Of a stretch of DNA of 64,000 nucleotides, positions 32,269 to 63,491 are shown one piece after another (the first letter of the stretch is position 1; each line of letters begins with the position of its first letter). The DNA comes from Tubulanus polymorphus (Eukaryota > Nemertea > Palaeonemertea > Tubulaniformes > Tubulanidae): positions 11,464,275-11,528,274 of the forward strand of contig NC_134032.1 of the NCBI RefSeq assembly GCF_964204645.1, written 5' to 3'. The notes beneath the pieces were generated by a model. The model was not told the origin of the DNA. It ran no database searches and was given only the letters and a program-made list of their open reading frames with translations. The translations under genes and the position numbers were made by a program.

Positions 32269-32416
32269 ATGTTGCTGTTGGAAGGTGTCGAGGTGCACGT
32301 ACGCGAGGATGCATTTAAAAGTTGTCTGCGTCGACACATGGATTGGTTAGATGAATTAGTTATTGATGCTGATGATAATACCTGGTTTAGATGGATGTCT
32401 AGACGTCAAACTAAAG
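32269..32416 (+). CDS. Common exon 1 of locus R
   Basis: The start is taken at the ATG shared by all three copies; the TTG-led frame from 32254 has no ATG. It has 49 codons plus one base and donor AAAG|GTTCGT at 32417, phase 1. MLLLEGVEV is followed by a segment rich in His, Arg, Trp and acids. No known domain is recognised. It joins common exon 2 through a split Gly codon. Near-identity among copies, including the decaying one, points to strong constraint on this N-terminus, possibly a partner-binding or dimerising element in the place where lola-type genes carry BTB. Confidence 0.85.
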
Positions 32417-32688
32417 GTTCGTCTTTAAAATCTCAATCCTCAAATTCAGTGATTTTTGGCCTTATAGAACTGTCAATGTATTTAGAAATGGAAGGGGTAT
32501 AAATGGAACTGGTGTACTAAACCAGGTGATAGGATGCTTAGAAAAATTTAAGGGGTAACAATTGGCTTAGTTTAGGTATATATAGACCTATTAGTTATTG
32601 AGGGTCAGAAATATGAAATATTAAGTGACTCTAAAGTAGTTTAATCATTGTTAAGTTCCCTGTCAATATTTGTTTTCTTTGTATTCAG
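32417..32688 (+). other. Intron 1 of locus R
   Basis: 272 bases from GTTCGT to TTGTATTCAG. No feature beyond the splice sites. Confidence 0.8.
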
Positions 32689-33882
32689 GTCAGAGAAGAG
32701 GACAAATGAATCAAATGTCCGGAGATGGAGGTGTTATGTACATCGGAACAAATCAATCAAAAACTGGACAAAAAAGACGATTTGAAGTTCAAAGCAGAAC
32801 AAAAACTGTCGCTCAGAACGTATTAAAAGCCGTGAAACGTCGGAGAGGAGGTGCAGCTGTACCGGGGACGTTACCACAGCAACGAGTTCAATCACAAACA
32901 ATGACGGCTGTCGGGCAGCAACCGATCGGTCTGTTACCAGCTCAACAGAGAATGACGCCCAATCGAGGAGGTCGCGGAAGAGGAAGAGGACGAGGTTTAC
33001 CTCCTCGTCATGTTTCACCAGCTATGAACATTCCTCCCATGAATATGGGAAACCAATCCGGAGTCCGTCAAATATCACCGGCTAATAGTGTTCGTAATCT
33101 CAATACTCAGTTTCAACAACAGAGGACGCCACCTCGTCCTATTACACAGACAACACCCATTAAACCAGCTCCACCTGGTGGTGAATCACCGAGAATATCG
33201 TTACAATCAGGAATAGACTTGAAACCATCGGTTACCAACGTCGTATCGCAGCAACAATTGAATGAATCTGAGAATGTTGTGTCATCGACGGCAACAGCTC
33301 CGGTCAGCTCAGCATCGGCAGAAACTGTCAATTTCTCAGTTCTAGATTCGACAGGATGTGAAATATTATCGAGTGCCGAAATTGAATCGACTTTAGAAAG
33401 TATTAAAAATGCTGAGGAGGAATCGAATGATTCTACGATTCCCGACGATTCAAATGTTGACGCGGCCTCGACGAATCAAAATGAAACTAACACCGAACAG
33501 CCGAGTGAAAGTGGATTATCGACACCCCCGCCCCCGGCGGTCTCCAGCTGCGATAACGCATTAGAACAATTAGAATCAATCGTAAGTTCCGCTCCATCGT
33601 TCGATCAATTAGAACTGTCTAGCAGCGCCACCTGTGGCGAAAACATCGAACTAAAATATAGCGAGCAATTAACTGATACAAACACTGCCAATATCAATAC
33701 GCTTCCATTCCAACAATCGCATCATCACCAAGGTTACGGCAGCGTTAAAAATGAACCGATGAAAATAGAACCGGTTGAAATATCGTCAGGAAGCGACGAT
33801 GATGAAGATTATTCAACTCAACAAATCATGCAGCAACAACATGATCCACAACCGGGAACGAGTGGCGGCTTTAATCATTCTG
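32689..33882 (+). CDS. Common exon 2 of locus R
   Basis: 1194 nt between TATTCAG|GT and TCTG|GTAGGTGT, phase 1 at both ends, so the shared protein is 447 residues plus a split codon. In protein numbering: basic bipartite patch about 78-102 (QKRRFEV...KAVKRRR), Gln-rich 110-140, RG repeat 142-153 (RGRGRGRG), Pro/Gln-rich to 210, Ser/Thr/acidic disordered part to 400, then VKNEP (402-406) and MKIEP (407-411), each psi-K-x-E, and a SIM-like VEISS followed by GSDDDED (412-423). A nuclear regulator that is SUMOylated and/or binds SUMO is the natural reading. Retention of the next intron would add only R-C before a stop. Confidence 0.88.
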
Positions 33883-34140
33883 GTAGGTGTTAACTGCCAT
33901 TTTGTTTATTCAATTATTTATTCATTTAGGGTCAAGTTTTAAAAACCACATTTTGCAAATTCAAAAAAACCACTCATTTGCCATCAATCCAGTTTTGCTT
34001 GGTTAATTGAACAAAAAATTTAGGCCCTTGTTTTTTTTTCAAGTTTTTTTTTTGGTGCTGAGAAATAGAATTCTAATTCCGTATTGATTTTTAAAAAAGA
34101 GGAAATAAAGGTAGCTTTGAGTTACATCGCTAGTTATATT

Positions 34141-34197
34141 TTGCGGATCTGTGGTTTTTGTAGCTCGTCCCATGCAGTAAACAAGGTCTCATGAAAT
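34141..34197 (+). promoter_or_regulatory. Conserved intronic block, locus R copy
   Basis: 57 nt, 258 bases past the common donor, matching 26069-26124 of locus L except for one inserted C. It contains TTTTTGTAG and CATGCAG words that resemble acceptors, and CAGTAAAC. The surrounding intron has diverged beyond alignment. Candidate splice-selection or trans-splicing signal. Confidence 0.6.
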
Positions 34198-35379
34198 ATG
34201 TTAAGTTATCAGGTCGCAGAGTGAATGAATGAGTAACCTTCATCGGAATTATAGCGAATGTCAAATATTAGGAAGATTTAATCCTGTGTATGAACTTAAG
34301 GCCCTAGTGTCCGTAGGGTAAATCCCATTACGGTTAAAGTTTAGGATGAATCATAGGGCTTGAACTTTTGTGCTTATAGTTAAGGTCTATAGACTAGATT
34401 TGAATTCAGTCTCTTGACTGCGCGAAGTTGGAACCAGATTCACATTGATCTTGAGTATTTTACTAAAATTGTTAGGGTTCAGATTTAGCAGGATTTGATT
34501 TCAGACACTAATGGTTGAAGGCACCACACAGCGCGGGTCCAGCTCTCACCCGAGCTTGTGCCAACCATGAAAAAAGATTGTGCGTTTCGCAAACTTCTTA
34601 GACAGCAGGCCGGGATTTGCAAATTTATTTATCGTTTAATTCAGGAAGAACAAATTTATTTATCGTTTAATTCTGACAAAAATTTCAAGCATATGATAAC
34701 GATGCACGATTTTCATATAAAAGAATAACAGCTGTTGTCGATTGTAGATTTATGATACGTAGTCAACGAAAGCCGTCATGCCCTGAGTTCATTGCGCTCC
34801 GTGGCGCGTTCGCCGCCTTGCGGTGATACAGTGCTGCCCCCTGGTAGCACGGGGCTATTGAATAGTCGGCGTCATATCATGAATGATAAGCGAGCATTCG
34901 GAATGAAGCGGAGTGGGTTGGTACTGTAGAGCTAGTTACATAGTCAGCTTTTGCTTGCAATTTGAACCAACGAGCATTGGGAATGAAACAGAGAGCATGC
35001 CGACATTGCCAGCCAATCAGGAACTGTGTCGTTCCCGCGTGCCAGACTTCAAATATCTTAACAGTGAATAAGAGGTATTAGCTTCAAATATACTCATAGT
35101 GGCGCTGGCTGAACTACCCAATAACTCCTATAGTAGCCAGCAACTGCGTTAAAACTCATATCATAACATAGTTGGAGGAAATAGGACAAGTCGAGGTTGA
35201 TACCGCTCTCATTTCTTTGCCGTTAAGAAAGAATTCCCCGTCGCGTGGGAAGAATATCAGAGCGTTAGGAAGAGTAGGAACTAGATGAAATTTAGAAATA
35301 TCAGTTTGAATACGAACAGTATCGGCCGCTCTACTCTATTACTGCATTGTTTATACTCAAAGATTTGAATCTTATTTGC

Positions 35380-35395
35380 GGGGGGGGGGGGGGGG
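35380..35395. repeat. Poly(G) run of 16
   Basis: Sixteen consecutive G in the main intron of locus R. In RNA it could form a quadruplex with itself or others; length may also be an assembly artefact. Confidence 0.8.
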
Positions 35396-37079
35396 TAAGG
35401 AGTTTTCTAAGTAAGTAATATCAGACCTTGTTTCTGCATGAAATATTTTACGATTCGAGGAGGCTCGTGTTCGAAAGTTGTCCCTTCCTCCGTGAGTTTT
35501 GAATCCAATTTGAAATCGTTGAAAAATTATTTCAATTCGATCTCCCTGTTAAACGACATCTAGAAATTCGCCTCGAGAGTTTGAATTTTTGCGACAGCTT
35601 TTGAACCGGACCCAGCACGCATGTCATAGGTTGATTAGTCAGAATTACAGTCGGTACATATCCGGGCTATTGTAGAGACGAAAGATTTGAAAATTAACAA
35701 GTTTTACTTAGAAAAAAAAGTAATTTTGCTTGAAATTGATATTGTTGTCTGGTACTCAGCGATTGAGGATGTATCAGAATCTGACGCAGTCTCTGGTAGA
35801 TGGGTCAGAAGTACAATTGACGACTATTTTGACTTCGAACCTGTGACAAGCGTGCGCGTTATATATGCACTACCTAGTGACTAAATAAGGTTCGCACGGA
35901 ACCCAGTTCTGCAATAGTGTGAGTTAGAGAATTTTGTTGAATAATTGAAGTGAACTGATTCTAAATTGGGAGTAGTTGCATTCGAACTGGCGATATTGCG
36001 GAACTGGGTCCTGATGAGAATCTCTGTACGCATTAGTTTGATGCTTGCTATAATTCCGAAGCGACAGTAGACTCGTTTTGTTTGAGGCTAGTCTCGAGAA
36101 ATTCTTTCCGGTTTAACGGGGAAAAAACTAGTTTGAGAAATTCTGTCTTTGAGATGAATATGTACATTGTTAATCCGGTGATACCAGTGTACTACCGATC
36201 CATCTCTCACTCAATGGAATTCCAATTATTAGGGAAATATGAACTGTTCAATCTGGGCTTCGGAAACGGGTAAAATTATACCTTCGGGGAACTAGGCGAC
36301 TATAGAGTCTACTGTCAAACCTTGTAGCAAGCTTTTGCGAAATACATGTTCTGTTTATTTCTTGAATGCTATGTTCGCTGAAAATGAGAAACTTTCTGAA
36401 ACTTGAGTGACTTAAACGCTATCGCGAAATACTTCGCCGATTCTTGAATCGTATCTCTCGCAATTGAAGCGAAAGATGAAAGATCAACATAGATCATTCT
36501 TTGAAGACGAGTACTGATTTAGAGAGACTCATTTTGTTGTGAACCGGTATTACGCTCTTTTATGAAGTATGTTTGAACCTCAGATATGTTAGAGGGCGGG
36601 GCGGGGGAAATTGGCAGTTCGCAAATTTAGCAAGTCTTGGAAAATTTAGCGTACCGGAACAAACACACTTTATAAAGAGATCTTACTTGCGGAGCTGGTT
36701 CTACAGTCATGACTTGTTATCAGACAAAGTTAAGATCGAGTTTGATAAGAGTTTCAAGCCTCAATTTTTAGATCATGAGTCCTGTAGTGGAACCAGGCCC
36801 ATAAATGTTTGTATTTCAGGCGACCCTTAAGCAACTGTATATATTCCATGACTCACCGTTATATTTGATGTCAGCTGCGAGGAACAGGATTTTTCTAGGT
36901 CTCGTCATTTTCCCCAGGATACGGAATCTTATTTTTTTCTTCTGACCGTCATTTCACGTTCAAGTCAATTAAACGCCGCTTAAGTTTTAAGTCCTCGGGA
37001 AATTTGTTCTGACCCCCTTTCGTACGTAACGTCATTATTTAAACGCACGCATATCATCGGTTCTCATGGCTCTTTCCAG

Positions 37080-37453
37080 GTGGCGCTTTCACCGACGAGC
37101 CATGGGAACCAACCACTTCCGGAATGCGGTGGCCGATCGTCAACCGTAAAAATACTGCGTCGCAACGAAAACCCAACATCGACGGATCACGGAGATATTA
37201 CTCTGCGCCCAGTATGTCAATAACAGCTCCACCTGTGGACAAATCCAAGAAATATAAATGTCGTTTTTGCGAAAAGCAGTTCCGAGGATTTATCGATTTA
37301 ACGCGACACGAACGCGTGCACACCGGCGAACGTCCGTTTAAATGTCCGATGTGCGATTTGAGATTCACGCAGAAAGCTCATCGTAAAGGTCATCTAGAAC
37401 GTCGTCATAACTTCAACATGGAAACATTCGCGATTCAGGAACTCGGAAACTAG
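37080..37453 (+). CDS. Terminal zinc-finger exon P1 (locus R)
   Basis: The acceptor GGCTCTTTCCAG|GT opens G-G-A-F-T-D-E-P-W-E-P. Two fingers: C-RF-C..H-ERV-H (helix -1/2/3/6 G,I,D,R) and C-PM-C..H-LERR-H (Q,A,H,G), linker TGERPFK, tail NFNMETFAIQELGN. This is the standard plan: about 60 variable residues, finger 1 with H-x3-H, finger 2 with H-x4-H, and a short conserved tail. The TAG stop lies inside the first unit of the following minisatellite. Its counterparts in L (M1) and D (6720-6909) are dead. Confidence 0.9.
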
Positions 37454-37683
37454 CAGACTGATTCCACAAACTAGCAGACTGATTTCATAAACTAGCAGAT
37501 TGATTTCACAAGCTAGCAGACTGATTTCACAAACTAGCAAATTGATTTCACAAACTAGCAGACTGATTGAACTGATTTCATAAACTAGCAGACTGATTGG
37601 ACTGATTTCATAAACTAGCGGACTGATTCCATAAACTAGCGGACTGATTCCATAAACTAGCAGACTGATTTCACAATCTAGCA
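37446..37683 (+). repeat. 21-bp minisatellite after P1
   Basis: About 11 units of AAACTAGCAGACTGATTTCA (20-21 bases), reverse complement of 23858-24136. It supplies the stop codon of P1. Confidence 0.85.
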
Positions 37684-37756
37684 GAAACATTTTTGACATT
37701 TTGGGGTTAAAAACACAATTTTGCTCTCTAATCATAAATCTATTTCGTTCTTCCAG

Positions 37757-38100
37757 CTTTGTGGATTCAACCACTTCAGTCGTCATTGACAACAATGGCT
37801 GATGACACGCTTCAACAGCCATCGTTACCATGGCAACAATCGACGTATCAATACGGATATCAGCGTAATAACCGTAACCACGGCGATGTGGGCGATAAAC
37901 CGTTTCAGTGTCAGTTTTGCGATAAGCGTTTCACGTGTTTGTCTAAAGTGACGCGACACGAGCGCGTTCACACCGGTAACCGACCGTTTAAATGCCCCAT
38001 GTGCGAATATTTCTTTAAAACGAAATGCGACCGAAAACGTCACCTGATACGAGTTCATAAATTCAATACGGAATTATTCTCGCTGAAAGATAAAGATTGA
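37757..38100 (+). CDS. Terminal zinc-finger exon P2 (locus R)
   Basis: The acceptor TTCTTCCAG|CT gives Ala at the junction (A-L-W-I-Q-P). Met/Gln-rich linker, then fingers C,S,K,R and T,C,D,R with linker TGNRPFK, tail KFNTELFSLKDKD. The finger region is identical to M2. Confidence 0.9.
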
Positions 38101-38173
38101 TCGTTGTTAGACTCGGACGCCATCTATTAGTCATAACTGAAATTATAACGAAGGTTCTCATGGCTTTTTGCAG

Positions 38174-38550
38174 GTAGCCGAATCGCCGTGCCACATCTAT
38201 TGCCATGGGAACCGTCTGAGGAGGCGACAATGGCGACGGTTGCTACGACTGCGCTATGGTTACCGGTGATTCCGACGATGACTCCGCCGGGTTCTAAGGA
38301 CCGCGCGGCGCGTTTAGGCGATTCGCGCACGGCCGGTCCGGACTATTGTTCGAAGAACCCGATGAATAAAAATAAACATCGGTGTCGGATTTGTAATAAA
38401 CGGTTTTTGAAACCGTCGGGTTTGGTTCGTCACGAGCGCGTACATACCGGTGAACGTCCCTTCGCGTGTCCCATCTGTAACAGATTGTTCTCTCAAAAAT
38501 TTAACCTGAAAACGCACGTGGAAAAAGTTCACGGTTTCGGTAAAATTTAA
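38174..38550 (+). CDS. Terminal zinc-finger exon P3 (locus R)
   Basis: The acceptor GGCTTTTTGCAG|GT opens [14 protein letters not shown]. Fingers: C-RI-C..H-ERV-H (K,S,G,R) and C-PI-C..H-VEKV-H (Q,F,N,T). Against M3 the fingers differ only at helix -1 and 3 of finger 2. It ends GFGKI with a stop three residues earlier than M3. Confidence 0.9.
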
Positions 38551-38932: not shown

Positions 38933-39225
38933 GTTTCCGCCGCGAGACGCCATGGGAACCGCAGCCGACCGTCGTCCAACTGGGCGGCTTGACGTACGGA
39001 CTTCTGACGGGTGGCGCCATCGGCGGGGAAAGTAAGAAATACAGGTGTCAGTTTTGCGATAAAGGATTTTCGTCGCCCGCCGAGTTGACGCGACACGAGC
39101 GAATTCACACCGGCGAAAAACCGTTCGAATGCCCAACGTGCAAGCTACGTTTCAACCAGAAAGGAAATTGCAAAAAGCACATGAAACGCGTTCATAACTT
39201 CGACCCAAACGCATTCGATTTCTAG
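38933..39225 (+). CDS. Terminal zinc-finger exon P4 (locus R)
   Basis: The acceptor CGTGGCTCTTTGCAG|GT opens [11 protein letters not shown] short prologue lacks the NVATGYEGV part found in M4, so it is a shortened form. Fingers S,A,E,R and Q,G,N,K; tail NFDPNAFDF. This is the last exon with a recognisable mirror partner in L. Confidence 0.9.
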
Positions 39226-40108: not shown

Positions 40109-40485
40109 GTGTCGGATACCACGTGCCGTATGGATCACTGCAATTTGTTGAACAGCGCCATCTACCGTCGTGGGATACCGTGCCTCAATATCGATGGCCC
40201 GTACACGGCGACGACGTCGCGGGAACGCGTCTAAGCGGCGACACCTATGCAACGCGGTCAAAACCGCCGCCGTCGACCGGTGGCGATGGTGATCAAAAAC
40301 ACCGATGCGAACGCTGCGGCAAAGGGTTTAAGCACCTTTGGCATTTGACGCGACACGCGCTCGTTCACACCGGTGAGAAACCGTTCACGTGTCCGATGTG
40401 CGAGCAATGTTTCAATCGCAAGTCGAGTTGTATGAGACACATGAAACACGTTCATAAATTTGACCGAAATCGATTCGATTTATGA
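40109..40485 (+). CDS. Terminal zinc-finger exon P5 (locus R)
   Basis: The acceptor GACTCTTTGTAG|GT opens G-V-G-Y-H-V-P-Y-G-S-L. Prologue rich in Arg, Asp and Ser. Fingers: C-ER-C..H-ALV-H (H,W,H,R) and C-PM-C..H-MKHV-H (R,S,S,R), linker TGEKPFT. Tail KFDRNRFDL. The H,W,H helix is shared with P7, so the two are related. Confidence 0.9.
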
Positions 40486-41645: not shown

Positions 41646-42004
41646 GTTCCCTACACAAGACCCCGTTGACCTGGGGACCGAACAATGCAATAACTGAATA
41701 TGAAGGGGTTTACGTTCAACCGGGTAGTAGTTCTAGCGGCGCCGTCTGGGAAACGAAATCTTTACCGAAGGCTAGTGGCGCCGCCGGTGGTGATAACAAG
41801 AAACATAACTGTCGATATTGCGATAAAGGATTCGCCCACCTGTGGCATTTGACGGCGCACGAGCGAATTCACACCGGCGAAAAACCGTTTAAATGTCCCA
41901 TGTGCGAACAACGTTTCAATCAGAAATCAAGCTGTAATCGTCACATGAAAACCGTTCATAACTTCGACCCTCACGCGTTCAACGTTTTGATGGAGATGTC
42001 ATAG
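41646..42004 (+). CDS. Terminal zinc-finger exon P7 (locus R)
   Basis: The acceptor CTCATGTTGCAG|GT opens G-S-L-H-K-T-P-L-T-W. Prologue ITEYEGVYVQPGSSSSGA. Fingers: C-RY-C..H-ERI-H (H,W,H,A) and C-PM-C..H-MKTV-H (Q,S,S,R). Tail NFDPHAFNV, extended by LMEMS as in M9. Confidence 0.9.
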
Positions 42005-42651: not shown

Positions 42652-43031
42652 GTCTCCGACACGAGTTCTCATCAGTTGGACTAAGCCTGCTCTCCGCGGG
42701 GATGACCGAAACCGCTCGAAACCGATTCGATGTAGCGAACGGATACGAAGGGGTTAATTTCGAATCGAGTAGTACTAGTGGCGCCATCCGTGGATCAAGG
42801 TCGAACGCGATGACCGGTGGTGCCATCAGTGGCGATAACAAGAAACATAAATGTCAGTTTTGCGGTAAAGGGTTTAATTATCCGGCTGAATTGACGCGGC
42901 ACAAGCGAATTCACACCGGTGAAAAACCGTTCGAATGCCCGGTGTGCAAGCTACGTTTCAATTGGAAGTCGAGTTGCGATAGACACACGAAGCACGTTCA
43001 TAATTTCGACTCGAATGCGAACAATTTTTAG
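42652..43031 (+). CDS. Terminal zinc-finger exon P8 (locus R)
   Basis: The acceptor GACTCTTTGCAG|GT opens G-L-R-H-E-F-S-S-V-G-L. Prologue NRFDVANGYEGVNFESSSTSGA. Fingers: C-QF-C..H-KRI-H (Y,A,E,R, identical to M6 finger 1) and C-PV-C..H-TKHV-H (W,S,S,R). Tail NFDSNANNF. Confidence 0.9.
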
Positions 43032-43226: not shown

Positions 43227-43912
43227 GTGTCCGATGCAAGTTGTCATGGGAACCGGTGCCGATCGTCGGACTAAGCCGTCTACCGTCGTGGAAGGTCAAG
43301 GCTAAAGGGCGATCAAAAGACGCGACCGAACGAGAAGGTATGGACGTTGAACCGGATCAGACTAGTAGCGACACGTCCGGGTCGATATCTACGCCGTCGA
43401 CCGGTGGCGCCACCGGTGCCGAGGGTAAGAAACACCGTTGTCGGTTTTGCGATAAAGCGTTCAGCGAACGCGGGAATATGGTGCAACACGAGCGAATTCA
43501 CACCGGCGAACGACCGTTCGAATGTCCGATGTGCGAGCTACGTTTCACACAGAAATCGAACCTCAAAACGCACATGAGACGCATCCACAACTTCGACCGG
43601 AGCAGTTTGACCGTAACATTGTCAGGGATGGTCGACGCCGGGAACGAAGACGACGCTGACGTGACGCCGCGCGGCCAATCAATCGCTAGCGGTGCTGGCG
43701 CCGCCACCGGTGGCGCCGGCAAGAAAAACAAATGTCAGTTCTGCGACAAAGGGTTCAAGTCTCGTTTGGAATTGGCACGACACGAGCGCGTGCACACCGG
43801 CGAAAAGCCGTTCCAGTGTCCGATGTGCGAGTTGTGTTTCAACCAGAAAGGAAACTGTCACCGACACATGAAGGTCGTTCATAACTTCGACGTGAACGCA
43901 TGCGATTTTTAG
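43227..43912 (+). CDS. Terminal zinc-finger exon P9, two finger pairs (locus R)
   Basis: The acceptor GGCTCTTTGCAG|GT opens G-V-R-C-K-L-S-W-E-P. Prologue PIVGLSRLPSWKVKAKGR. Fingers 1-2 (E,G,N,Q; Q,S,N,T) end in NFDRSSLTVTLSGMV, a tail-like segment that does not stop but runs through a 45-residue linker into fingers 3-4 (S,L,E,R; Q,G,N,R) and the true tail NFDVNACDF. It looks like two ancestral two-finger exons fused. Confidence 0.9.
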
Positions 43913-44160: not shown

Positions 44161-45146
44161 GTGTCGGATACGACGTGCCGCGTGAATTGTTGCCGTCCGT
44201 TAGATTAAGCCGTCTGCCGACCGCTACGATCGACGCCAGCGTTTGCTTAAACGTCGGGACCGGATACGAAGGGGATGACGCGAAACCGGGCGGTTCTAGC
44301 GGAGACCCGGATGGGTCGAAGTCGAAACCGACGACGGAAACCAGCGCCTCGGGTGGCGTAATGAAACAATGCGAATGTCACTTGCGCCGTAACGGATTTA
44401 GTCGCGCCGTGTTAAACGCGCGACACAAGCGAAAACGCGCCCGCGAAAAGCTTTTCAAATGTCGGACATGCGAGTTAACTTTTATCGATTTATCGAACCT
44501 TAATCGGCACGTGAAACAGATTCATACCGACGAAAAACCGTTTACGTGTCGGTTTTGCGACAAAAGGTTCATCTTTCCCAACCAATTGACGCAACACGAG
44601 CTGATGCACTCGGGCAAAAAACCGTTCAAATGTCCGATGTGCGAGAAATATTTCACGCAGACGTCGACGCGTAATCGACACGTGAAACAGATTCACACCG
44701 ACGACGAACAGCCATTCGCGTGTCGGTTCTGCGATAAAGCGTTCAACGCTCGCGCCGATCGTAATCGACACGAGCGAATTCACACCGTCGAAAAACCGTT
44801 GGCGTGTCGGTTCTGCGATAAAGCGTTCAATAATCGCGGCGATTGTAATCGACACGAGCGAATTTACACCGGCGAAAAACCGTTTAAATGTCCGACGTGT
44901 GAGAAATGTTTTGTGCTGAAATCACATTGTCAACAGCACGTTAAAATGGTTCATATCAACGAACGAGCGTTCGCGTGTATGTTCTGTGATAAAGCGTTCA
45001 ATACTCGCGCCGATTGTAATCGACACGAGCGAATTCACACCGGCGAAAAACCGTTCGAATGTCCGACGTGCAAGAAACGTTTCAATCTGAAGGATAACCG
45101 TAATCGGCATTTGAAAAGAATTCATAACAGTGAAAACCCGTCTTAA
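44161..45146 (+). CDS. Terminal zinc-finger exon P10, eight fingers (locus R)
   Basis: The acceptor GACTCTTTGCAG|GT opens G-V-G-Y-D-V-P-R-E-L-L-P. A degenerate finger (CHLRRNGF) is followed by eight fingers with helices D,S,N,R; F,N,Q,Q; Q,S,T,R; A,A,D,R; N,G,D,R; L,S,H,Q; T,A,D,R; L,D,N,R. The fifth has its last ligand changed (HERIY). It ends NSENPS-TAA, where the TAA stands in the place of the Lys codon that follows KPF in other fingers, so the stop is a nonsense change inside a longer array. Confidence 0.88.
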
Positions 45147-45530
45147 TGTTCGACGCGCGAGCTACATTTCACACAGAAATCGAACCTCAAAACGCGCATT
45201 AGACGCATCCACAACATCGTCCAGAGCAGTTTGACCGTAACATTGTCCCGGGTGGTCGACGCCGGGCACGAAGACGACGCTGACGTGACGCCGCGCCGCC
45301 AATCGATCGCTAGCGGTGTCTCCACCGGTGGTGTCGGCAAGAAAAACAAATGTCAGTTCTGCGACAAAGGGTTCAAGTCTCGTTTGGAATTGGTACGTCA
45401 CGAGCGCGTGCACACCGGCGAAAAGCCGTTCCAGTGTCCGATGTGCGAGTTGTGTTTCAAACAGAAAGGAAACTGTCACCGACACATGAAGGTCGTTCAT
45501 AACTTCGACGTGAACGCGTGCGATTTTTAG
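45147..45530 (+). pseudogene. In-frame continuation after the P10 stop (copy of P9 3' half)
   Basis: Directly after the TAA the same frame stays open for 384 bases: a broken finger (C-STR..., second Cys and first His lost) with the P9-like TQKSNLKT, then the P9 linker and two intact fingers (S,L,E,R; Q,G,N-type) and the tail NFDVNACDF. No acceptor precedes it, so it is silent unless the stop is read through. Confidence 0.75.
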
Positions 45531-45806: not shown

Positions 45807-46537
45807 GTGTCGGATATGACGTGCCGCGTGAATTGTTGCCGTCCGTTAGATTAAGCCGTCTGCCGTCCGCGACGATCGACGCCCGTGTTTGGTTAAACGT
45901 CGGGACCGGATACGAAGGGGATGACGCGAAACCGGGCGGTTCTAGCGGAGACCCGGATGGGTCGAAGTCGAAACCGACGACGGAAACCAGCGCCTCTGGT
46001 GGCGTAATGAAACAGCGTGAATGCCAGTTGCGTCGTAAAGGATTTAGTCACGTTGCGTTTAATGTGCGTCACAAGCGAAAACGCGCCCGCGATAAGCTTT
46101 TCAAATGTCAGGTATGCGAGTTAACTTTTACCGATTTATCGAACCTTAATCGGCACATGAAACAGATTCATACCAACGAAAAACCGTTTACGTGTCGGTT
46201 TTGCGACAAAAGGTTCATCTTTCCCAACCAATTGACGCGACACGAGCTGATGCACTCTGGCGAAAAACCGTTCAAATGTCCGATGTGCGAGAAATATTTC
46301 ACGCAGACGTCGACGCGTAATCGGCACGTGAAACGGATTCACACCGACGACGAACGACCGTTCGCGTGTCGGTTCTGCGATAAAGCGTTCAACGCTCGCG
46401 CCGATCGTAATCGACACGAGCGAATTCACACCGGCGAAAAACCGTTCGAATGTCCGACGTGCGAGAAACGTTTCAATCTGAAGGAGAATCGTAATCGGCA
46501 TTTGAAAACAGTTCATAACGGTGAAAAACCGTTTTAA
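45807..46537 (+). CDS. Terminal zinc-finger exon P11, five fingers (locus R)
   Basis: Duplicate of P10 with the same prologue. One degenerate finger is followed by five fingers; the three central P10 fingers N,G,D,R, L,S,H,Q and T,A,D,R are missing in frame. The end is NGEKPF-TAA, again a stop replacing the Lys codon after KPF. Confidence 0.88.
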
Positions 46538-47274: not shown

Positions 47275-47999
47275 GTGTCGGATACGACGTGCCGCGTGAA
47301 TTATTGCCGTCCGTTAGACTCGATCGTCTGCCATCGGGGAAGGTCGATGCTCAAGGTCGGTCGTATTTAGCTCCTAGTGAAGGGGTTAACGCGAAACCCG
47401 GTTGTTCAAGTGGTGACGCAGATGGATCAGAGTCTAAACCGACGACTCGTGGCACCATTCACACCGATGTAAAACCGTTTACATGTCCGATGTGCGAGCA
47501 GCGTTTTATGCGTATGTCAAATCGTACCCGGCACATGAAACGGTTTCATAGCAAGGAAAAACCGCACGTGTGCCAGTTTTGCCATAAAGGGTTCATTTTT
47601 CTCCGCCAATTGCAGCGGCACGGGCAAATACACGCCGGCGTAAAACTATTCAAATGTCCGATTTGCGATCAGGGTTTCAGTCAGAAAGTAAACCGTAAAC
47701 GACACATCGAAACAGTTCATAACAACGTAAAACCGTTTAAATGTCCGACGTGCAAGCGGCGATTTACGCAGAAATGGAATTGCGAAGCGCACATGAGTAG
47801 AGTTCATTACGACACCAAACCGTTTAAATGTCCGATGTGCAGGTTAGGTTTTAACCAGAAATCCGGCCGTAACTGGCACATGAGGACGTTTCATAAGAAT
47901 GAAAAACCGTTCGAATGTCCGATTTGCAAGGTATGGTATAAGCTGAAATCGAGCTGTAGACGGCACATGCGAATGGCTCATCAAGGAACGACCCGTTAG
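47275..47999 (+). CDS. Terminal zinc-finger exon P12, six fingers (locus R)
   Basis: The acceptor AAACTCTTTGCAG|GT opens G-V-G-Y-D-V-P-R-E-L-L-P, prologue DRLPSGKVDAQGRS. Six fingers: R,S,N,R; F,R,Q,R; Q,V,N,R; Q,W,N,A; Q,S,G,W; L,S,S,R, the last with Trp-Tyr around the core (VWYKLK). Five are of the H-x4-H kind, unlike the alternating pattern elsewhere. It ends MAHQGTTR without the NFD tail. Confidence 0.9.
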
Positions 48000-49088: not shown

Positions 49089-49480
49089 GTGTCGGATGCA
49101 AGTTGCCATGGGAACCACAGCCCAATGTTGGACGCTGCTTTCAGTCCGCTGATAGGAGCCAGGCTCAAGGTCGATTCATGGTAGCACACGAATATCAAGG
49201 GGTTAACGTAGGCATGGGTAGTACTAGCGGCGCCACTGGTCAACCACTATCTCAAGCGATAGCTGGCGGCACGGCGAGTGCCGATATAAAAAAATATAAA
49301 TGCCAGTTTTGCGGTAAAGGGTTTAGCCAGAACGGAAATCTGAAGCAACACGAGCGAATTCACACCGGCGAAAAACCGTTCAAATGTCCGATGTGCGAGC
49401 TACGTTTCACGCAGAAATCGAACCGTAAAGGTCACATGAAACGCGTTCATAACTTCGATCAGAATACATTCGATTTCTGA
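49089..49480 (+). CDS. Terminal zinc-finger exon P13 (locus R)
   Basis: The acceptor GGCTCTTTGCAG|GT opens [12 protein letters not shown]. Prologue [22 protein letters not shown]. Fingers: C-QF-C..H-ERI-H (Q,G,N,Q) and C-PM-C..H-MKRV-H (Q,S,N,G, identical to M4 finger 2). Tail NFDQNTFDF. Confidence 0.9.
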
Positions 49481-50298: not shown

Positions 50299-50705
50299 GT
50301 CTCTCGTGCGAGGTACCGTGTGCCATGTCTGTTGGACGACGCCGCCAATCGGCTGTTAAGGTCGATGCTCAAGGTCGATTGGAAGTTGAAACGGCTTGTA
50401 CTAGTGGCGCCGCCGATGCGAAAAGCGATAAATTCAAATGTCGATATTGCGATAGAGGATTTGCGTTTCGCGCGATCTGGATCCGACACGAGCGTACGCA
50501 CACCGGCGAAAAACCGTTCAAATGCGCGATATGCGATCAACGTTTCAATCTGAAGGGAAACCGTAAATTGCACGTGGAACGCGTTCATTCCGATGAAAAA
50601 CCGTTCAAGTGTCCGATGTGCGAGAAATGTTTCAATCGTAAAGGCAACCGCAAACGTCACATCGAATGCGTTCATAACTTCAACCCGAATGCGTTCGGTT
50701 TTTGA
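50299..50705 (+). CDS. Terminal zinc-finger exon P14, three fingers (locus R)
   Basis: The acceptor GCGGCTCTTTGCAG|GT opens G-L-S-C-E-V-P-C. Fingers: C-RY-C..H-ERT-H (F,A,I,R), C-AI-C..H-VERV-H (L,G,N,L), C-PM-C..H-IECV-H (R,G,N,R), linkers TGEKPFK and SDEKPFK. Tail NFNPNAFGF. Its first finger is nearly the same as that of P15. Confidence 0.9.
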
Positions 50706-51031: not shown

Positions 51032-51558
51032 GTTCTGAGCGCGAGGTGCCATGGCAACCAGCGCCACCTGTTGAACGCCGCTGTCAATCGACTCGAGGTC
51101 GATTGAAAGGGGCCGATGTCGAACCGGTTGGTACTAGTGGCGCCACCGACGTGGACGGCAGATTCAAATGCGAATATTGCGATAGGACGTTTATTTTTCG
51201 CGCGATCTGGATCCGTCACGAACGCGTGCACACCGGCGAAAAACCGTTCAAATGCGCGACGTGTGGGCAACGTTTCGCGCAGAAATCCAGCCGCGACCGG
51301 CATACGAAATCGGTTCACAACGTCGACCCGAATAGTAACCTGTCATTAAGGAGAGCGGAGGCTCGTCGATGTCGGTTTTGCGATCGAGCGTTCAATTTTC
51401 CCGCGGAGCGTAAACGTCACGAGCGAATTCACACCGGCGAAAAACCGTTTAAATGTCCGACGTGCGAACAGCCTTTTTCGCAGAAATCGAGCGTTATAAG
51501 ACACATGAAAGGCACGCAGAAATGCAACTTGGATACATGCGATGTTTTTGATTATTGA
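51032..51558 (+). CDS. Terminal zinc-finger exon P15, four fingers (locus R)
   Basis: The acceptor AACTCTTTGTAG|GT opens G-S-E-R-E-V-P-W-Q-P. Fingers F,A,I,R; Q,S,S,R; then a linker NVDPNSNLSLRRAEAR, again an old tail read through, and F,A,E,R; the fourth (CPTCEQPF) lacks its last His (HMKGTQK) and may not bind zinc normally. It ends CNLDTCDVFDY. Confidence 0.88.
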
Positions 51559-52058: not shown

Positions 52059-52390
52059 GTGCTGCGACCGGACTGCTGTGGAATCCCGGATTCGACGCTC
52101 ACGCCGACGTCATCAGAAGTCGACAACCTTTCCTGGGATTACGCAGAAAGCCGGTCGATCACGATACGCGTCGCAAACACGCGTGCAGCTATTGCGAAAA
52201 ACGTTTCCTATCGTCGGGCGATTTGAAACGACACGAGCGAATTCACACCGGGGAAAAACCGTTCGAATGTCCGATGTGCGAGCAACGTTTCACGCAGAAA
52301 GTCACGCGTAAATTACATCTGCAACGCGTTCATAATATCAACATGGAATTATTCACGCTGAAAGACTTATTCACGCTGAAAGACTCGTGA
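52059..52390 (+). CDS. Terminal zinc-finger exon P16 (locus R), no ATG
   Basis: Found from the splice phase: acceptor GGCTATTTGCAG|GT, then 109 open codons from [10 protein letters not shown] to TGA. Fingers: C-SY-C..H-ERI-H (S,G,D,R) and C-PM-C..H-LQRV-H (Q,V,T,L). The tail [11 protein letters not shown] is followed by a second LFTLKDS, a 21-base internal duplication. Counterpart of M7 and M8 on locus L, including the unusual GATGGCTATTTGCAG acceptor. Confidence 0.85.
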
Positions 52391-52767: not shown

Positions 52768-53102
52768 GTGGGTACTTCCCCGCGCCGACACACGCGTTGC
52801 CATGGGAACCAGAATTCTACATCGGCGACGGTAACTACGACGACGGCGGCGACGGTAACTACGGAGCTGCGCAACAATCGACGTCGCCGACGACGATGAG
52901 TTTACGTCGGAATTACGAGTGTCAACACTGCCTGCGGCGGTTCATGTGTCGACGCGATCTGACGCGACACGAACGCGTTCACACCGGCGAACGTCCGTTC
53001 AAGTGCCCGATCTGTACGAGGTCGTTCGTGCAAAAGGTCCATCGCAAAAGTCACCTGCGTAAAGTTCATCAGTTCGACCTCGATTTACTCAACGATAAAT
53101 AG
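52768..53102 (+). CDS. Terminal zinc-finger exon P17 (locus R)
   Basis: The acceptor GGCTTTTTACAG|GT opens G-G-Y-F-P-A-P-T-H-A-L-P-W-E-P. The linker has Gly-Asp-rich repeats (GDGNYDDGG, GDGNYG). Fingers: C-QH-C..H-ERV-H (C,R,D,R) and C-PI-C..H-LRKV-H (Q,V,H,S). Tail QFDLDLLNDK. Confidence 0.9.
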
Positions 53103-53700: not shown

Positions 53701-53999
53701 GTTTCGCCGCCGGTGAGCACGTTCATCTACACGAGTTGTTGGCAGCACCGCCTACCGGACAGCGGTCGTCGGACGGCCGGACGACGGGATCGAAGGAGCA
53801 TCGGTGTCGATTTTGCGGTAAACGGTTCACAGCGCCGTCGTTGCTCACGCGACACGAGAGGACGCACACCGGCGAGAAACGGTTTAAGTGCCCGTTGTGC
53901 GCGCGTCCGTTTTCGCAGAAAGCGCATTGTAAAGATCATCTGAGACGCGTGCATCGATTTACGATGAATGTTCTTAGCGATTTAGGAGGATATATGTGA
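53701..53999 (+). CDS. Terminal zinc-finger exon P18 (locus R)
   Basis: The acceptor CTCGATTATTTGTAG|GT opens G-F-A-A-G-E-H-V-H, a different prologue class shared with P19. Fingers: C-RF-C..H-ERT-H (A,S,L,R) and C-PL-C..H-LRRV-H (Q,A,H,D), linker TGEKRFK. Tail RFTMNVLSDLGGYM. Confidence 0.88.
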
Positions 54000-55105: not shown

Positions 55106-55383
55106 GTTTTGCCGGTGAGCAGTTGGCAGCGCCACCTACGGGACGACGTCAATTATCGGACAGCCGTACGGGAACGAAGAAACACGCGTGTAGATTTTGT
55201 AGCAAATGCTTTCGGGCTCCGTCGCTGCTCGCGCGACACGTCAGGTCGCACACCGGCGAAAAACAGTTTAAATGTCCGTTGTGCGCGCGTCCGTTCGCTC
55301 ACAAGTCGCACTGTAAAGACCATCTTAAACGCGTGCACGGTTTCGATGTAGACGTCCTTAAAGATCTACGAGGATATCTATAA
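55106..55383 (+). CDS. Terminal zinc-finger exon P19 (locus R)
   Basis: The acceptor CTCCATTATTTGTAG|GT opens G-F-A-G-E-Q-L-A-A-P-P-T-G. Fingers A,S,L,R and H,S,H,D; tail GFDVDVLKDLRGYL. Duplicate of P18; finger 1 keeps the same contact residues while finger 2 changes at -1 and 2. Confidence 0.88.
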
Positions 55384-55851: not shown

Positions 55852-56156
55852 GTGGTGCCCCGGTTACTGGACAACAGCTCTCCGGCGACGGACTTTATCC
55901 GACTGTTCGGTCATCGAGGACGACCGCGACGACGACCTCGTTTCGCGTGAAAAAACACGAATGTCGATATTGCCCGAAACGCTTTATGACTCCCTTCTTG
56001 GTCAAACGACATGAATGTACCCACACCGGATACCGGCCGTACTATTGCCCTGTTTGTATGCGCGCGTTCACGCAGAAGGTCAGCATCAAACGCCATTTGT
56101 TCAATGTGCACGGACTGAACGAGCTGAAACATTTCCACGATTTCGGACTCCGTTGA
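55852..56156 (+). CDS. Terminal zinc-finger exon P20 (locus R)
   Basis: The acceptor GCTTATTTTTAG|GT opens G-G-A-P-V-T-G-Q-Q-L. Fingers: C-RY-C..H-ECT-H (T,F,L,R) and C-PV-C..H-LFNV-H (Q,V,S,R), linker TGYRPYY. Tail GLNELKHFHDFGLR. Confidence 0.87.
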
Positions 56157-56661: not shown

Positions 56662-57029
56662 GTTATCCGACTTACGACCCGCTTGCTGCGCAATTCGGGA
56701 CTGGTGGCGCCGTCTACGATCATCAGCGACAGTACGTTAACCTGCCGGTGAGCGACGCCGCCAAACGCGTAGATTTCTCGGATTTGCTTCCGTCTGCCGA
56801 GAAGAAGCCTCACGTCTGTTCGATTTGCGGCAAGAACTTCGCATATTTGTCGCTGTTGAAGGCTCACTTACGCAGCCACACCGGCGAGAAACCGTTCGAA
56901 TGTCGCATCTGCACACAGGCATTCTCGATGAAGGGCAATCTGATGGCGCACATGAAAAGCAAACACAATATCGATAAAACGATCATCAAAGAGTTGTTTC
57001 GGCAGACGGCGCGTAGTATGGACCCGTAA
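56662..57029 (+). CDS. Terminal zinc-finger exon P21 (locus R)
   Basis: The acceptor GGCATTTTGCAG|GT opens G-Y-P-T-Y-D-P-L-A-A. Fingers: C-SI-C..H-LRS-H (Y,S,L,A) and C-RI-C..H-MKSK-H (M,G,N,A), linker TGEKPFE. Tail NIDKTIIKELFRQTARSMDP. The helices are poor in Arg and the spelling differs from the main group, so this is an older member. Confidence 0.87.
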
Positions 57030-57546: not shown

Positions 57547-58049
57547 GTTCGCACCGGTTCTTCCCTGGTATGCCAGTAGGTGGCGGTAGCGCGCCGATGT
57601 ATCATCATCAACAACAACAACAGCAAATGTTTTATCAATCGAAACCGATAACTGCAGGTAGGGGGCGCCCTCGCGGAAGCAGGGGTGGACGAGGTCGACC
57701 AGTATCGCGTTCTGTCGGCGAGATGGCGCCGCCGTTTCAGCAGCAGCAGCAGCAGCAGGCGCCTCAACCCAGTGGCGGCGGGAGTCGAATTTTATACGAC
57801 GAGGAATCGGGCGAGAAACGCTACGTTTGTTCGTCGTGCGGCAAATCGTACGCGTCGAAGTCGGCGTTGGCAATTCACAATCGTACGCACTCCGGCGAGA
57901 AACCGTTCAACTGTCGCATCTGTCAACAGGCGTTCCGTCAGAAGGGGCACCTGATGTCGCACCTGAAACGCATTCACAACATCGACCAGTCGTTCATCGA
58001 CGAGTTGTCTCCGCTTAAATCGAGACCGAAAACCGAACCGGCTGATTAG
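57547..58049 (+). CDS. Terminal exon P22: AT-hook-like motif plus two fingers (locus R)
   Basis: The acceptor ATTTTTGTGCAATTTTGCAG|GT opens G-S-H-R-F-F-P-G-M-P. The linker has poly-Gln runs (two stretches of 5-7 Q) and GRGRPRGSRGGRGRP, which holds two RGRP cores typical of AT-hooks. Fingers: C-SS-C..H-NRT-H with Tyr for the core Phe (S,S,A,I) and C-RI-C..H-LKRI-H (Q,G,H,S). Tail NIDQSFIDELSPLKSR, then PKTEPAD. It is the only exon that adds a minor-groove type motif to its fingers. Confidence 0.87.
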
Positions 58050-59631: not shown

Positions 59632-59948
59632 GTGGCGTTTTCCTCAGTGAACTGTACCGCAGAAGCGTTAGCAGAGGCAGTCGGAGCGGCCCTTCCCGTC
59701 AGTTAGAAATGGAATATCCACCGGTGGCCCATCAGCAGTTTGCGAGTCAACGACATCGATGCGCCATTTGCGATAAAGGATTCGCGTCCGCTTTGTTGTT
59801 GAGGATACATCACCGGTCGCACACCGGCGAAAAACCGCACGTCTGCGCCGTGTGCAAAAAGCGTTTCACGCAAATCGGAAATTTAAACGTTCATTTAAAA
59901 CGCGTTCATAACATTCGCTACTGCGTCGCGGCGGACGAACCAGAGTGA
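59632..59948 (+). CDS. Terminal zinc-finger exon P23 (locus R)
   Basis: The acceptor GTGCATTTTACAG|GT opens [10 protein letters not shown] Ser/Arg-rich stretch ([13 protein letters not shown]) is followed by fingers S,L,L,I and Q,G,N,V with linker TGEKPHV. Tail [12 protein letters not shown] links it to P24 and P25. Confidence 0.88.
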
Positions 59949-60228
59949 AACGTCGTTAATATATCGGCTCGAAGGGATTGGTTTTTTTCTTCGTCCGTGT
60001 TGATAGTATTTTCGTGATTGTTAGGGGATTTCTGCTGTTATCTTTGCTTCGCTTTTCTCACTAGAAACATCGGACATATCCTCGCTAGAAAAATTGAAAT
60101 CTGCCTTGTAACGCGGTTTTTTAAACGAATTTTGCGAGGCAACATTTTGCGTTATACCTAACCGAAACATAACATATATATGTAGATAAACACTAACTAT
60201 AATTTTGACGTAATTCGAAATTTTCCAG

Positions 60229-60614
60229 ATGCGAGGTGGTCACCGTGGCAACAAACGTACGAAAAAACCAGAATGCAAACTGCAGTATCTGCAACTACGA
60301 GGAAATCGACGCCCGCCAAAAACGATTGGTCGCGCCAGTGTCAGATTTGTTTGAAAGTTTGTCGCAACCGCTACGATCTGGACGCGCATTTGAACGTGCA
60401 CACCGGCCGGAAGCCTCACATCTGCCCGATCTGCCGAAACGGTTTCACGCAAGTCGGAAGTTTGAACGTTCACCTGAAGACGGTTCACTCCGGATCTAAG
60501 CCTCACGTTTGCCCCGTGTGCCAAAAATCTTTCTCGAAGATCGGAAATTTAAAGGATCACCTGATTCGTCTTCACAACATCTACGAAGACGCAGTCGCCG
60601 AAGGACCTGACTGA
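60229..60614 (+). CDS. Terminal zinc-finger exon P24, three fingers (locus R)
   Basis: The acceptor is ATTCGAAATTTTCCAG|AT, so the split codon becomes Asp (D-A-R-W-S-P-W-Q-Q) in place of Gly. Finger 1 has Cys for the core Phe (CLKVCRNR; N,Y,D,A), then Q,G,S,V and K,G,N,D. Linkers are TGRKPHI and SGSKPHV. Tail NIYEDAVAEGPD. It shares KNDWSR-C with M11 (KDDWSR-C), its counterpart in L. Confidence 0.87.
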
Positions 60615-60859
60615 AAACCAAATCGAACCTGAAATTTGTGTTTTCTTTGAAAATTGTCGATTACTGTTCAATTTTCGGTGTCCTTTTGTTGTCAAGTTTA
60701 GTTCATTCAGACATAATTTCTATAGAAACCTTAACGTCGAAATTTTGTTTCGATGCAATTTTCTGAGAGGCGCCATTCTGTTTGAAGTAATCCTGACGTA
60801 ACTTTTTTATCATGACAATAATTCGAACAATAATTCTGATGTAATTCGGAATTTTCCAG

Positions 60860-61155
60860 GTGCGAATTGGTCACGATGGCAACAAGCGTACGAGGAAAGC
60901 AGCTGCGCGCAGACGGCCGGGTCGCCGAGGAAACGGACAGACGACCAAAATGATTGGTCTCGGCGGTGTCAAATTTGCTTGAAGTATTTCCGTAGCCGCT
61001 ACGATTTGGACGTTCATTTGAACGTGCACACCGGCCGGCGACCGCACATCTGCCCGATTTGTAATAAAGGTTTCACGCAAGTCGGAAATTTAAACAAGCA
61101 TTTGAAACGCGTTCATAACGTTCTCTCGTGCGTCGCGGCAGACCGACCGAAATGA
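60860..61155 (+). CDS. Terminal zinc-finger exon P25 (locus R), no ATG
   Basis: The acceptor TAATTCGGAATTTTCCAG|GT opens G-A-N-W-S-R-W-Q-Q-A-Y, then 97 codons run to TGA with no in-frame ATG. Fingers: C-QI-C..H-LNV-H (S,Y,D,V) and C-PI-C..H-LKRV-H (Q,G,N,K). Tail NVLSCVAADRPK. Tandem duplicate of P24 with one finger fewer. Confidence 0.85.
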
Positions 61156-61303
61156 TCATCCTTTTCCCTAAATGTTGCGGAAATATAACAGGAATATTTT
61201 GGGTTTTTTTTTAAATGAAACTATTATTTTTTTGTGTGTTACGCGTTGGAGAAAATATCCAGACTGAAATTAGCATGTACAAGTATATTATCTTTTTAGT
61301 GGA

Positions 61304-61309
61304 AATAAA
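61304..61309 (+). terminator. Poly(A) signal AATAAA after P25
   Basis: 150 bases past the P25 stop. Confidence 0.45.
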
Positions 61310-61479
61310 TATAGACTTTTTTCGTGAACGTGGTTTTCTTGAATTTCAGAGTTCTTGTTCGAGGTTTTTGCAAGACTTTATTAACTTACTTGACTATAGG
61401 AAATTGGTTGAAAATGACAAATGAGCAGAGACAAGATCAGAAAAAATTAACACAAGCATTAATTTTGACGTTGGTCGGA

Positions 61480-61760
61480 TTTTCCAAAATATGAAATGGT
61501 CGCGGCAGCTACTAGTGCGAGAAAATCAACAAGTTATAGACAAAATCTAAAATTCTAGGAAACCTACACCTGTGAGGATAGGTAAATCAACACTTCCAAG
61601 GAAATCGAAATCTACATCTACGAGGATGTATGTACACTAGCTGAGACCGATCAGTCGCGCCAGTGCCCTGGACCTCGCATTTCTACCATCTGTAAAAGAG
61701 GTTTTTAACGAGTCCCACATTTAAACCTTCACAAGAAAACAGTACATAGCCATCCTCCCC
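61480..61760 (+). pseudogene. Decayed P24/P25-type exon
   Basis: GACGTTGGTCGGATTTTCCA, then AATATGAAATGGTCGCGG recalls the acceptor and GVKWS start with the AG lost. Later GACCGATCAGTCGCGCCAGT and TTAAACCTTCACAAG recall the fingers. Stops throughout. Confidence 0.6.
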
Positions 61761-61769
61761 TGGCAGGTT

Positions 61770-61850
61770 GCCTCGGTAAGGTCGTGCCGTGGTTGAGTCG
61801 ATGCCATCAGGTTTGAATCCCTACCGTGGGAGGATGTTCATAGCGGATTC
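61770..61850 (+). repeat. tRNA-derived SINE, copy 2
   Basis: GATGCCATCAGGTTTGAATC, CCTACCGTGGGAGGATGTT matches the minus-strand copy at 48450-48545. The B box has one change. Confidence 0.5.
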
Positions 61851-61959
61851 CTTGAGCTAGAAGTTTATTCGACATTTCGACTATATTCTAATATTCAGCA
61901 TTAGAAACACAAAAATGCCGCCGTGTACAACTTCTACTTCTATGTACTTTTAGGCAAAG

Positions 61960-62310
61960 TTCATAGCGGATTAACACTAATGTTTGTACCACATATAAAC
62001 ACTCACCTGAAAACTGTTCATACTGCAAAACTCACAAGTTTGCAAGAGAAACGTCTTACTCAATCCCCCGAAGTTTTAAAAAGTTCACCGGGACTCGGTT
62101 CACATGCGATTAAAACGTGTGTAGCATTTGCAAAAAAGGTTCCGGGCAATCGAACAGTTTAAAAACTCGCGTGGAAACTGTTCTCCACACTATGTGAAAA
62201 ACCTCATATTTGTACCGTGTGCAAAAAGGTTTTACGCAAGTTGCAAGTTTCAGCATTTAAACAGTCACGTGAAACGATTTCATAGCAGTCGCTTATTTCT
62301 CTATCTTCAA
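61960..62310 (+). pseudogene. Second decayed exon between P25 and P26
   Basis: Fragments such as AACACTCACCTGAAAACTGT, TGTACCGTGTGCAAAAAGG and GTCACGTGAAACGATTTCA spell pieces of at least three fingers, with frameshifts and stops. Confidence 0.55.
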
Positions 62311-62751
62311 TTTTGAACACTAGTGCGGTTCTCTAAAAATCTTCAAATGTTTATGATGAACTGATGTGATATAGGACCGGAGTTTTCTTTTGAATCCAGT
62401 TTCTTTTCTTCTTTTTATCAACAAGGAGCAATTCCTGGTCCAAATTCACTGCTGACCTGTTTCATTTAGCGCGATGACAAAGGGATTTGAGATGAAGTTT
62501 CCGTGAACACTGGATCCGGGAAACTTTAACTAGAACAACTTTGGAACAACTTTTAACTAGAACAACTTAGACCGTTGAGCACACATGTATTGACAATTTT
62601 TGTTAATGGTTGTTTTTGTATTTGTTTTATTTGACATTTATAGAAATCATGCCGTGGTTTTCGCATGATTTTATAAATCTGACAATGAAAAGGCAAAAAG
62701 GTAGAACGTGACAGAAATAACATAAACATAATTCTTATTCGGATTTTCCAG

Positions 62752-63491
62752 GTGTCGAATGGTCGTCGGGGCGACAAGCGCAGGATACGAGCGGCGTACA
62801 AACGGAGACGCCGTCTTCGTTGCTGAGGAAATCCGCGCGCGCCAAGAAACCTACGTGGAAGTCTACAGCCGCGGCGATAACAACACTGGCGACGACGAGA
62901 TCATCGCCTCTGAAGAGAGATCGGTCGTTCAAGTGCCCTGCGACGAAATCGACGCCTTTGACGAAAGAGAAGCCGTTCAAGTGTCGGGTTTGCGCGAAAA
63001 CGTTCGAGCGACGCCGCGATCGCGACGTTCATTTCAACGTTCACACCATCGAGAAACCGCACGTGTGCAACATGTGCAAAAAGCGTTTCATGAGCGTCCC
63101 GTGTCTGGAACTTCATCTGGATACCGCGCACAGCCAGTTAAAACCGCACGTTTGCCCCGATTGCAAGAAAAGTTTCACCACGGCTGGAAATCTAAAGGTT
63201 CACCGCAAAACGGTGCACACCGGCGAAAAGCCGTTCACCTGCCCCGTGTGCGAGAAGAGTTTCTCACTGGCCGGGAATTTGCACGTCCACGTGGGAACCG
63301 TTCACTGCGGGTCGAAAGCTCACGTTTGCCCGGCTTGCCATAATCGTTTTTCGACACAGGGTAATCTGAAAATTCACATGGAGACCGTTCACCTGGGAGT
63401 CAAACCTCACGTTTGCGCCGTTTGCACGAAATGTTTTTCGCGAATGGGAGCTTTGAACAACCACCTGAAACGCGTTCACAACATTAAGTAA
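62752..63491 (+). CDS. Terminal zinc-finger exon P26, six fingers (locus R)
   Basis: The acceptor CTTATTCGGATTTTCCAG|GT opens G-V-E-W-S-S-G-R-Q. A Lys/Arg-rich linker and one broken finger (FKCPATKST) are followed by R,R,D,V; S,P,C,L; T,G,N,V; L,G,N,V; T,G,N,I; R,G,A,N. Linkers vary (TIEKPHV, SQLKPHV, TGEKPFT, CGSKAHV, LGVKPHV). Tail RVHNIK and stop. Counterpart in style of M10. Confidence 0.9.

Follow-up and report, generated by a model that had tools for sequence, protein, structure and literature searches.

A gene start in the nemertean Tubulanus polymorphus appears spliceable to any of 34 zinc-finger endings

A stretch of 64,000 nucleotides from the nemertean Tubulanus polymorphus (the window; contig C8, NC_134032.1, positions 11,464,275-11,528,274; positions without a contig are counted from its first letter) holds a locus in which, judged from sequence, one gene start appears to be spliceable to any of 34 zinc-finger endings. 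One common donor is followed by many phase-matched 3' exons, each of which carries zinc-binding fingers and its own stop. Very probably, the locus is an isoform generator for DNA-binding proteins, in which a common part is joined to one of 34 terminal finger exons. In such a system, the donor of common exon 2 would be joined to one of the 34 alternative terminal exons, and the exon chosen would complete the split codon in phase 1, add its C2H2 fingers (2-7 in each of the 34 exons) and end in its own stop. The locus would also have a promoter and a regulated choice of finger exon, and the domain encoded by exon 1 would supply a shared protein-protein or effector function.

To describe the array, finger-bearing open reading frames (ORFs) of at least 60 amino acids were counted, and the best-scoring AG was taken as the acceptor. 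This acceptor is in phase 1 in 25 of the 26 plus-strand finger ORFs that lie behind the donor in the window, the background AGs of the same stretches being distributed as 82/94/84 over phases 1/0/2. The product of the per-ORF fractions of phase-1 AGs is 4e-14 (an ORF without a phase-1 AG being counted as 1), a value that overstates the case because duplicated exons are not independent. For some exons the acceptor margin is thin, e.g., at 52059 (2.6 vs. 2.2) and 56662 (3.2 vs. 2.8). The original prediction had described approximately 24 acceptors, all in phase 1; its phase rule holds, and its array size was too small, as nine further phase-1 finger exons lie within 10 kb past the window and bring the total to 34. 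Nine of the ten rows scored there are in phase 1, the tenth being a tail piece of the exon at 62752. The array ends at approximately C8:11,536.5 kb, and no additional finger exons were found past the 34 up to 11,551,599, immediately short of the next unit. Contact-residue signatures are distinct in all 34 exons, and Pfam C2H2 fingers were found in each of the nine exons scanned (six on the plus and three on the minus strand).

The common part of the plus-strand unit consists of two exons whose junctions are in phase 1 throughout. Exon 1 (32269-32416) begins with ATG, encodes a 49-residue domain and ends in the donor AAAG/GTTCGT. Exon 2 (32689-33882) is of low complexity and RGG-rich; its peptide, read by eye, contains an RGG stretch, VKNE, MKIE and an acidic VEISSGSDDDE, and we take VKNE/MKIE and VEISSGSDDDE to be SUMO-type motifs. 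Its donor, TCTG/GTAGGT, lies in phase 1 between 33882 and 33883, exactly where the original prediction had placed it. The form G/GTAGGTG is kept in 11 of the 14 common units examined (L054, L055 and L056 gave no pattern match), and in nine of these 11 a stop in the exon frame lies no more than three codons inside the intron (33883-33893 in the window unit). This stop is TAA in eight units, including that of the window, and TGA in the decayed third unit described below; an unspliced message or a retained intron would thus give a finger-less protein. Exon 2 is restricted to the cluster of units to which this one belongs, with a single weak match elsewhere, on C12 (E 0.003).

By comparison, exon 1 is widespread. 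In the 268 Mb of genome searched, its protein has 28 matches outside the cluster, 22 of them at E < 0.005 and six at 0.009-0.5; a consensus-like query, whose source alignment includes these six, scores them at 2.5e-7 to 1.4e-4, and four more weak matches were seen with further queries. The original prediction had presented it as an unrecognised exon of 49 residues; with these 28 copies, it is not an orphan. In an alignment of 29 copies, D, W, W and R are near-invariant within LDxLDxxVxxADExTWxRW. Pfam returned no family for the window copy and, over the 29 members, six single-member matches (best 0.036), none of them credible. The domain has no sequence relative in PDB (best E 0.9); AlphaFold, run on the single sequence, gives two helices with a mean predicted local distance difference test score of 67, and a PDB fold search with this model yielded a lone match at E 9.2. 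A literature search, which was thin on subscription papers, returned no recognised description of the domain or of such an array outside BTB loci. The best donor of the domain exon is in phase 1 in 26 of the 28 dispersed copies (background GTs: 58/42/32 in phases 1/2/0), and its acceptor is in phase 1 in 21 of the 23 copies with a positive acceptor score; as far as splice-site scores can tell, the exon that encodes the domain is a symmetric one of phase 1-1.

The dispersed copies are also associated with zinc fingers. When 31 of them were compared with the 136 non-cluster fingers among the best 150 C2H2 matches listed, 14 had a listed same-strand finger at most 30 kb downstream, and the other 17 had none among the 150; in 2000 trials of random placement, the mean was 0.18 and the highest count 2. 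Listed fingers were found upstream on the same strand for none of the 31 copies and downstream on the opposite strand for none; upstream on the opposite strand they were found for four, each of which belongs to a divergent C7 pair. Same-strand finger ORFs are present in each of the 14 stretches read behind domain copies, 13 of which had been chosen for a known finger. On these sequence features, the domain, of approximately 40 residues, is read as a recurrent zinc-finger-associated domain that heads C2H2 genes. Outside the association test, a weak domain match at C5:16,821,229 (+; E 0.0115) is followed, approximately 4 and 7 kb downstream on the same strand, by two top C2H2 matches.

Phase-1 arrays recur behind other copies of the domain. 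Of the 31 finger ORFs at C7:17.68-17.70 Mb, 30 are in phase 1 and 19 lack a Met before the fingers; the domain loci at C9:2.32 Mb and C7:16.18 Mb have 9/9 and 7/7 phase-1 finger exons, respectively, and the C7 right arm has 2/2. As a control, a finger gene without the domain (C3:2.92 Mb) is in phase 1 in 8 of 16 cases. Other domain loci are less array-like: at C3:4.06 Mb there are four many-finger exons, three of them in phase 1, and the loci at C2:5.36 and C8:5.63 Mb resemble ordinary many-finger genes. A second divergent domain arrangement lies on C7, with copies at 17,708,871 (-) and at 17,711,049 and 17,715,576 (+); its left arm has approximately 30 finger exons, and just two were found in the 15.75 kb of the right arm. 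In the C8, C7 and C9 arrays, all 91 phase-1 best acceptors have TT at -6/-5, vs. 10 of 16 in the control finger gene, which may reflect a splicing-factor preference common to the arrays or an effect of selection by the scoring.

The cluster on C8 holds 15 copies of exon 1 within approximately 225 kb (11.414-11.639 Mb), one of them without its first seven residues. From a 4.5-kb gap inside the window the copies diverge, six to the left on the minus strand and nine to the right on the plus strand. To the right of this gap lies the array already described, in which 25 phase-1 exons occupy 37080-37453 (2 fingers), 37757-38100, 38174-38550, 38933-39225, 40109-40485, 41646-42004, 42652-43031, 43227-43912 (4 fingers), 44161-45146 (7 fingers), 45807-46537 (5 fingers), 47275-47999 (6 fingers), 49089-49480, 50299-50705 (3 fingers), 51032-51558 (3 fingers), 52059-52390, 52768-53102, 53701-53999, 55106-55383, 55852-56156, 56662-57029, 57547-58049, 59632-59948, 60229-60614 (4 fingers), 60860-61155 and 62752-63491 (6 fingers). 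The only plus-strand ORF whose best acceptor is not in phase 1 (45147-45530) is truncated and taken as a dead copy.

To the left, a head-to-head minus-strand unit has its exon 1 at 27650-27797 and its exon 2 at 26343-27533, with the donor at 26343, followed by eleven open finger exons (11373-23766) with acceptors at 23766, 23349, 22629, 20862, 18897, 17807, 16808, 15739, 14601, 13278 and 11617; that at 22629 is the second-best choice, and in the exon at 18897 one of two fingers is degenerate. A third unit, also on the minus strand (7758-9057), is decayed, with exon 1 open, exon 2 frame-broken and the donor still in place. The minus-strand finger exons 3' of it (2406-6501) are mostly dead; one, 4233-3194, with eight fingers, is open and in phase 1, and is possibly served by the common part of another unit. 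Over the minus strand of the window, the best acceptor is in phase 1 in 11 of the 16 ORFs scored, a count that leaves out one ORF without an AG and one fragment under the length cut. Of the five misses, four are fragments or have a broken frame, and the fifth (22718) has a near-equal phase-1 second choice at 22629 (3.6 vs. 3.8), which matches its plus-strand paralogue. The original prediction that dead exons break the phase rule is thus fair, because the misses, like the truncated plus-strand ORF, are mostly broken copies and the fifth has a close phase-1 alternative. There is no minus-strand finger ORF at 24.4-64 kb and no plus-strand one before 37 kb, and those of the next 10 kb are on the plus strand only. 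At least 46 open finger ends were counted in the cluster, from the minority of units whose arrays were read.

The exons bear marks of selection. For exon 2, the ratio of nonsynonymous to synonymous substitution rates (dN/dS) is 0.15-0.21 in the three comparable units out of five tried; for finger exons it is 0.10-0.49 in nine of ten pairs, and 0.17-0.20 in three diverged pairs with dS > 1. These estimates show purifying selection on the sampled exons. The proportion of nonsynonymous differences (pN) is 0.150 at DNA-contact positions (0.41 relative to the synonymous proportion, pN/pS) vs. 0.076 (0.27) in the finger scaffold. Such a pattern fits working proteins that would be diverging in DNA preference.

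Behind the common donor lies a conserved intronic element, at 34140-34197 in the plus-strand unit (starting 258 nucleotides past the donor) and at 26069-26125 in the minus-strand unit (218 nucleotides past its donor). The two introns are largely unalignable, yet they have 57 of 58 bases in common at 34140-34197 and 26125-26069; local gene conversion could be the source of this island between the two window units. Copies of at least 37 aligned bases lie approximately 200-425 nucleotides past the donor in nine of the 17 exon-2 copies examined, shorter aligned stretches of 20 and 13 bases were found in one copy each, and three of the 17 have no recognised donor. The best-kept block is around GCTCGTCC and ATGCAGT, and a genome-wide DNA search with the element found six places, all within the cluster. 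No conserved RNA fold of the element was found (2 weak pairs; z +0.6 and +1.3), and a search of the intron against Rfam gave two sub-threshold matches, neither of them at the element. Pairing of the element with sequences upstream of the acceptors is not in excess (for the 34 exons, Z of the mean is -0.7; among five control intron segments, one reached Z 2.0), and docking-selector pairing via the element was rejected. A tiny terminal exon (TTTTTGTAG/CTCGTCCCATGCAGTAA) was also considered and rejected by eye, three of the nine aligned copies having no AG and four others no stop.

It might be argued that each finger exon is a small zinc-finger gene in its own right, with its own promoter and 5' coding exon, and that these genes are clustered behind a gene that only looks common to them. 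The spacing of approximately 0.9 kb (median 933 bases between the 34 exons) could hold small promoters, and 13 of the 25 window exons have a Met between the acceptor and the first finger. However, the remaining 12 have none, the acceptors are near-uniformly in phase 1, and the array was found to contain no further domain exon (none on C8 between 11,496,692 and 11,551,655); moreover, the phase-1 donor of the domain exon recurs in 26 of 28 dispersed copies. We therefore give separate genes very little credence. The dead copies (45147, 24323 and 2.4-6.5 kb) might in turn suggest a decaying graveyard, with use confined to a few finger exons close to the donor and the others left as relics; given that 34 plus-strand exons retain open frames, acceptors and finger motifs, and that the three pairs with dS > 1 have such low dN/dS, a graveyard is highly improbable.

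Trans-splicing would be a special case of the isoform generator rather than its competitor. The common transcript would stop in the first intron, with the conserved element as its terminator, and the finger exons would be transcribed from independent promoters, as in mod(mdg4), for which the available part of one source describes a 79-nucleotide, non-canonical structured terminator in the intron before the alternative exons (PMC11727487; this part gives no distance to the donor). The position of the conserved stretch in nine of 17 exon-2 copies is consistent with such a role. Nonetheless, a clear copy is missing from the other eight, the element shows no conserved RNA fold, unlike the mod(mdg4) terminator, and every finger ORF of the window and of the 10 kb beyond it shares the strand of its unit, so there is no need to invoke trans-splicing. 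It is a possibility that we consider rather unlikely.

Several observations weigh against the isoform generator itself or narrow what its evidence can bear. Phase agreement within one array is partly inherited via duplication, and the acceptor scores come from a generic matrix, not one trained on the T. polymorphus genome. At the domain locus at C4:24.63 Mb, three of four finger exons are in phase 0 and one is in phase 1, as in an ordinary intron-split finger gene. AATAAA or ATTAAA occurs within 500 nucleotides past the stop in 22 of 46 exons vs. 41% of random stretches, so that enrichment is unclear. One finger-exon pair has a dN/dS of 1.07, with few changes, and some pairs share exons; linkers change as fast as contacts (pN 0.136, pN/pS 0.45), and the contact excess is a descriptive figure. 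We find it reasonably likely that a hitherto undescribed domain of approximately 40 residues, borne by a symmetric phase 1-1 exon, gave rise to a zinc-finger family in this lineage, that at least four of its loci became lola-like generators by multiplying phase-1 terminal finger exons, and that the largest of them, the bidirectional cluster of 15 units, may use the intronic element for the choice of end.

Huge arrays of alternative 3' exons are best known from the BTB genes of arthropods, lola and mod(mdg4) among them. If a domain unrelated to BTB heads this plan at several places in a single genome, the plan must have evolved more than once and can do without BTB. The array design may be easy to evolve when the domain exon is symmetric (phase 1-1), and the domain, combined with exon phase, provides a simple key for locating such loci elsewhere. 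Furthermore, the 15 units offer a natural experiment on the choice that a single donor makes between dozens of acceptors.

Like lola and mod(mdg4) in the way it works, the locus is not a member of the BTB family and was apparently built independently on a new zinc-finger-associated domain. A Pfam scan of both common exons found no BTB domain, as had been predicted. The genome has at least 57 BTB matches; among the matches listed, the sole one on C8 is at 0.72 Mb, and none lies within 100 kb of three copies that span the cluster or of the three array loci. A BTB match does lie 15-85 kb from three single copies of the domain. Models of COX1, haemocyanin and cuticle protein had no matches in the genome; the latter two were silent in the controls as well and so carry no weight for placing the organism. 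The original prediction had allowed for either an independent or a highly diverged version of the Drosophila plan; independent origin fits better because neither BTB nor any other credible Pfam family was seen, and a highly diverged lola finds no support.

Dscam has internal, mutually exclusive exon clusters with docking-selector pairing. The Tubulanus locus resembles it in placing a large array of alternative exons behind one constant exon, but its alternative exons are terminal, and there is no excess of complementarity between element and acceptors. In lola, according to the available part of one study, 17 of 20 isoforms have different C-terminal C2H2 fingers, and the BTB domain is of the TTK type, which that study did not find outside Arthropoda (PMC11426971). 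In both systems, many alternative 3' exons that carry C2H2 fingers share the same N-terminal exons; unlike in lola, the common part in Tubulanus has the new domain of approximately 40 residues instead of BTB, and its exon 1 is present 15 times in the cluster. For mod(mdg4), the parts of the sources available describe common 5' exons that serve 30 or more 3' variable regions (PMC4667647), as well as FLYWCH, some (not all) exons on the opposite strand and reported trans-splicing (PMC4667647, PMC11727487). Common 5' exons and, as a parallel of position only, an intronic element upstream of the alternative exons are found in both; as far as those parts go, Tubulanus differs in having C2H2 rather than FLYWCH, finger ORFs that, as read, are all on the strand of their unit, and an element without a conserved fold.

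The domain itself may be compared with KRAB, ZAD and SCAN, which are short, zinc-finger-associated N-terminal domains. FiNZ, an N-terminal domain of cyprinid fish, was likewise defined by its association with C2H2 genes, according to the part of the source available (PMC10547256). Like these, the Tubulanus domain is short, N-terminal and at the head of an expanded C2H2 family. Unlike them, it belongs to no credible Pfam family in any of the 29 members (FiNZ being set apart without a sequence comparison), and it heads several loci at which the 3' finger exon has been amplified.

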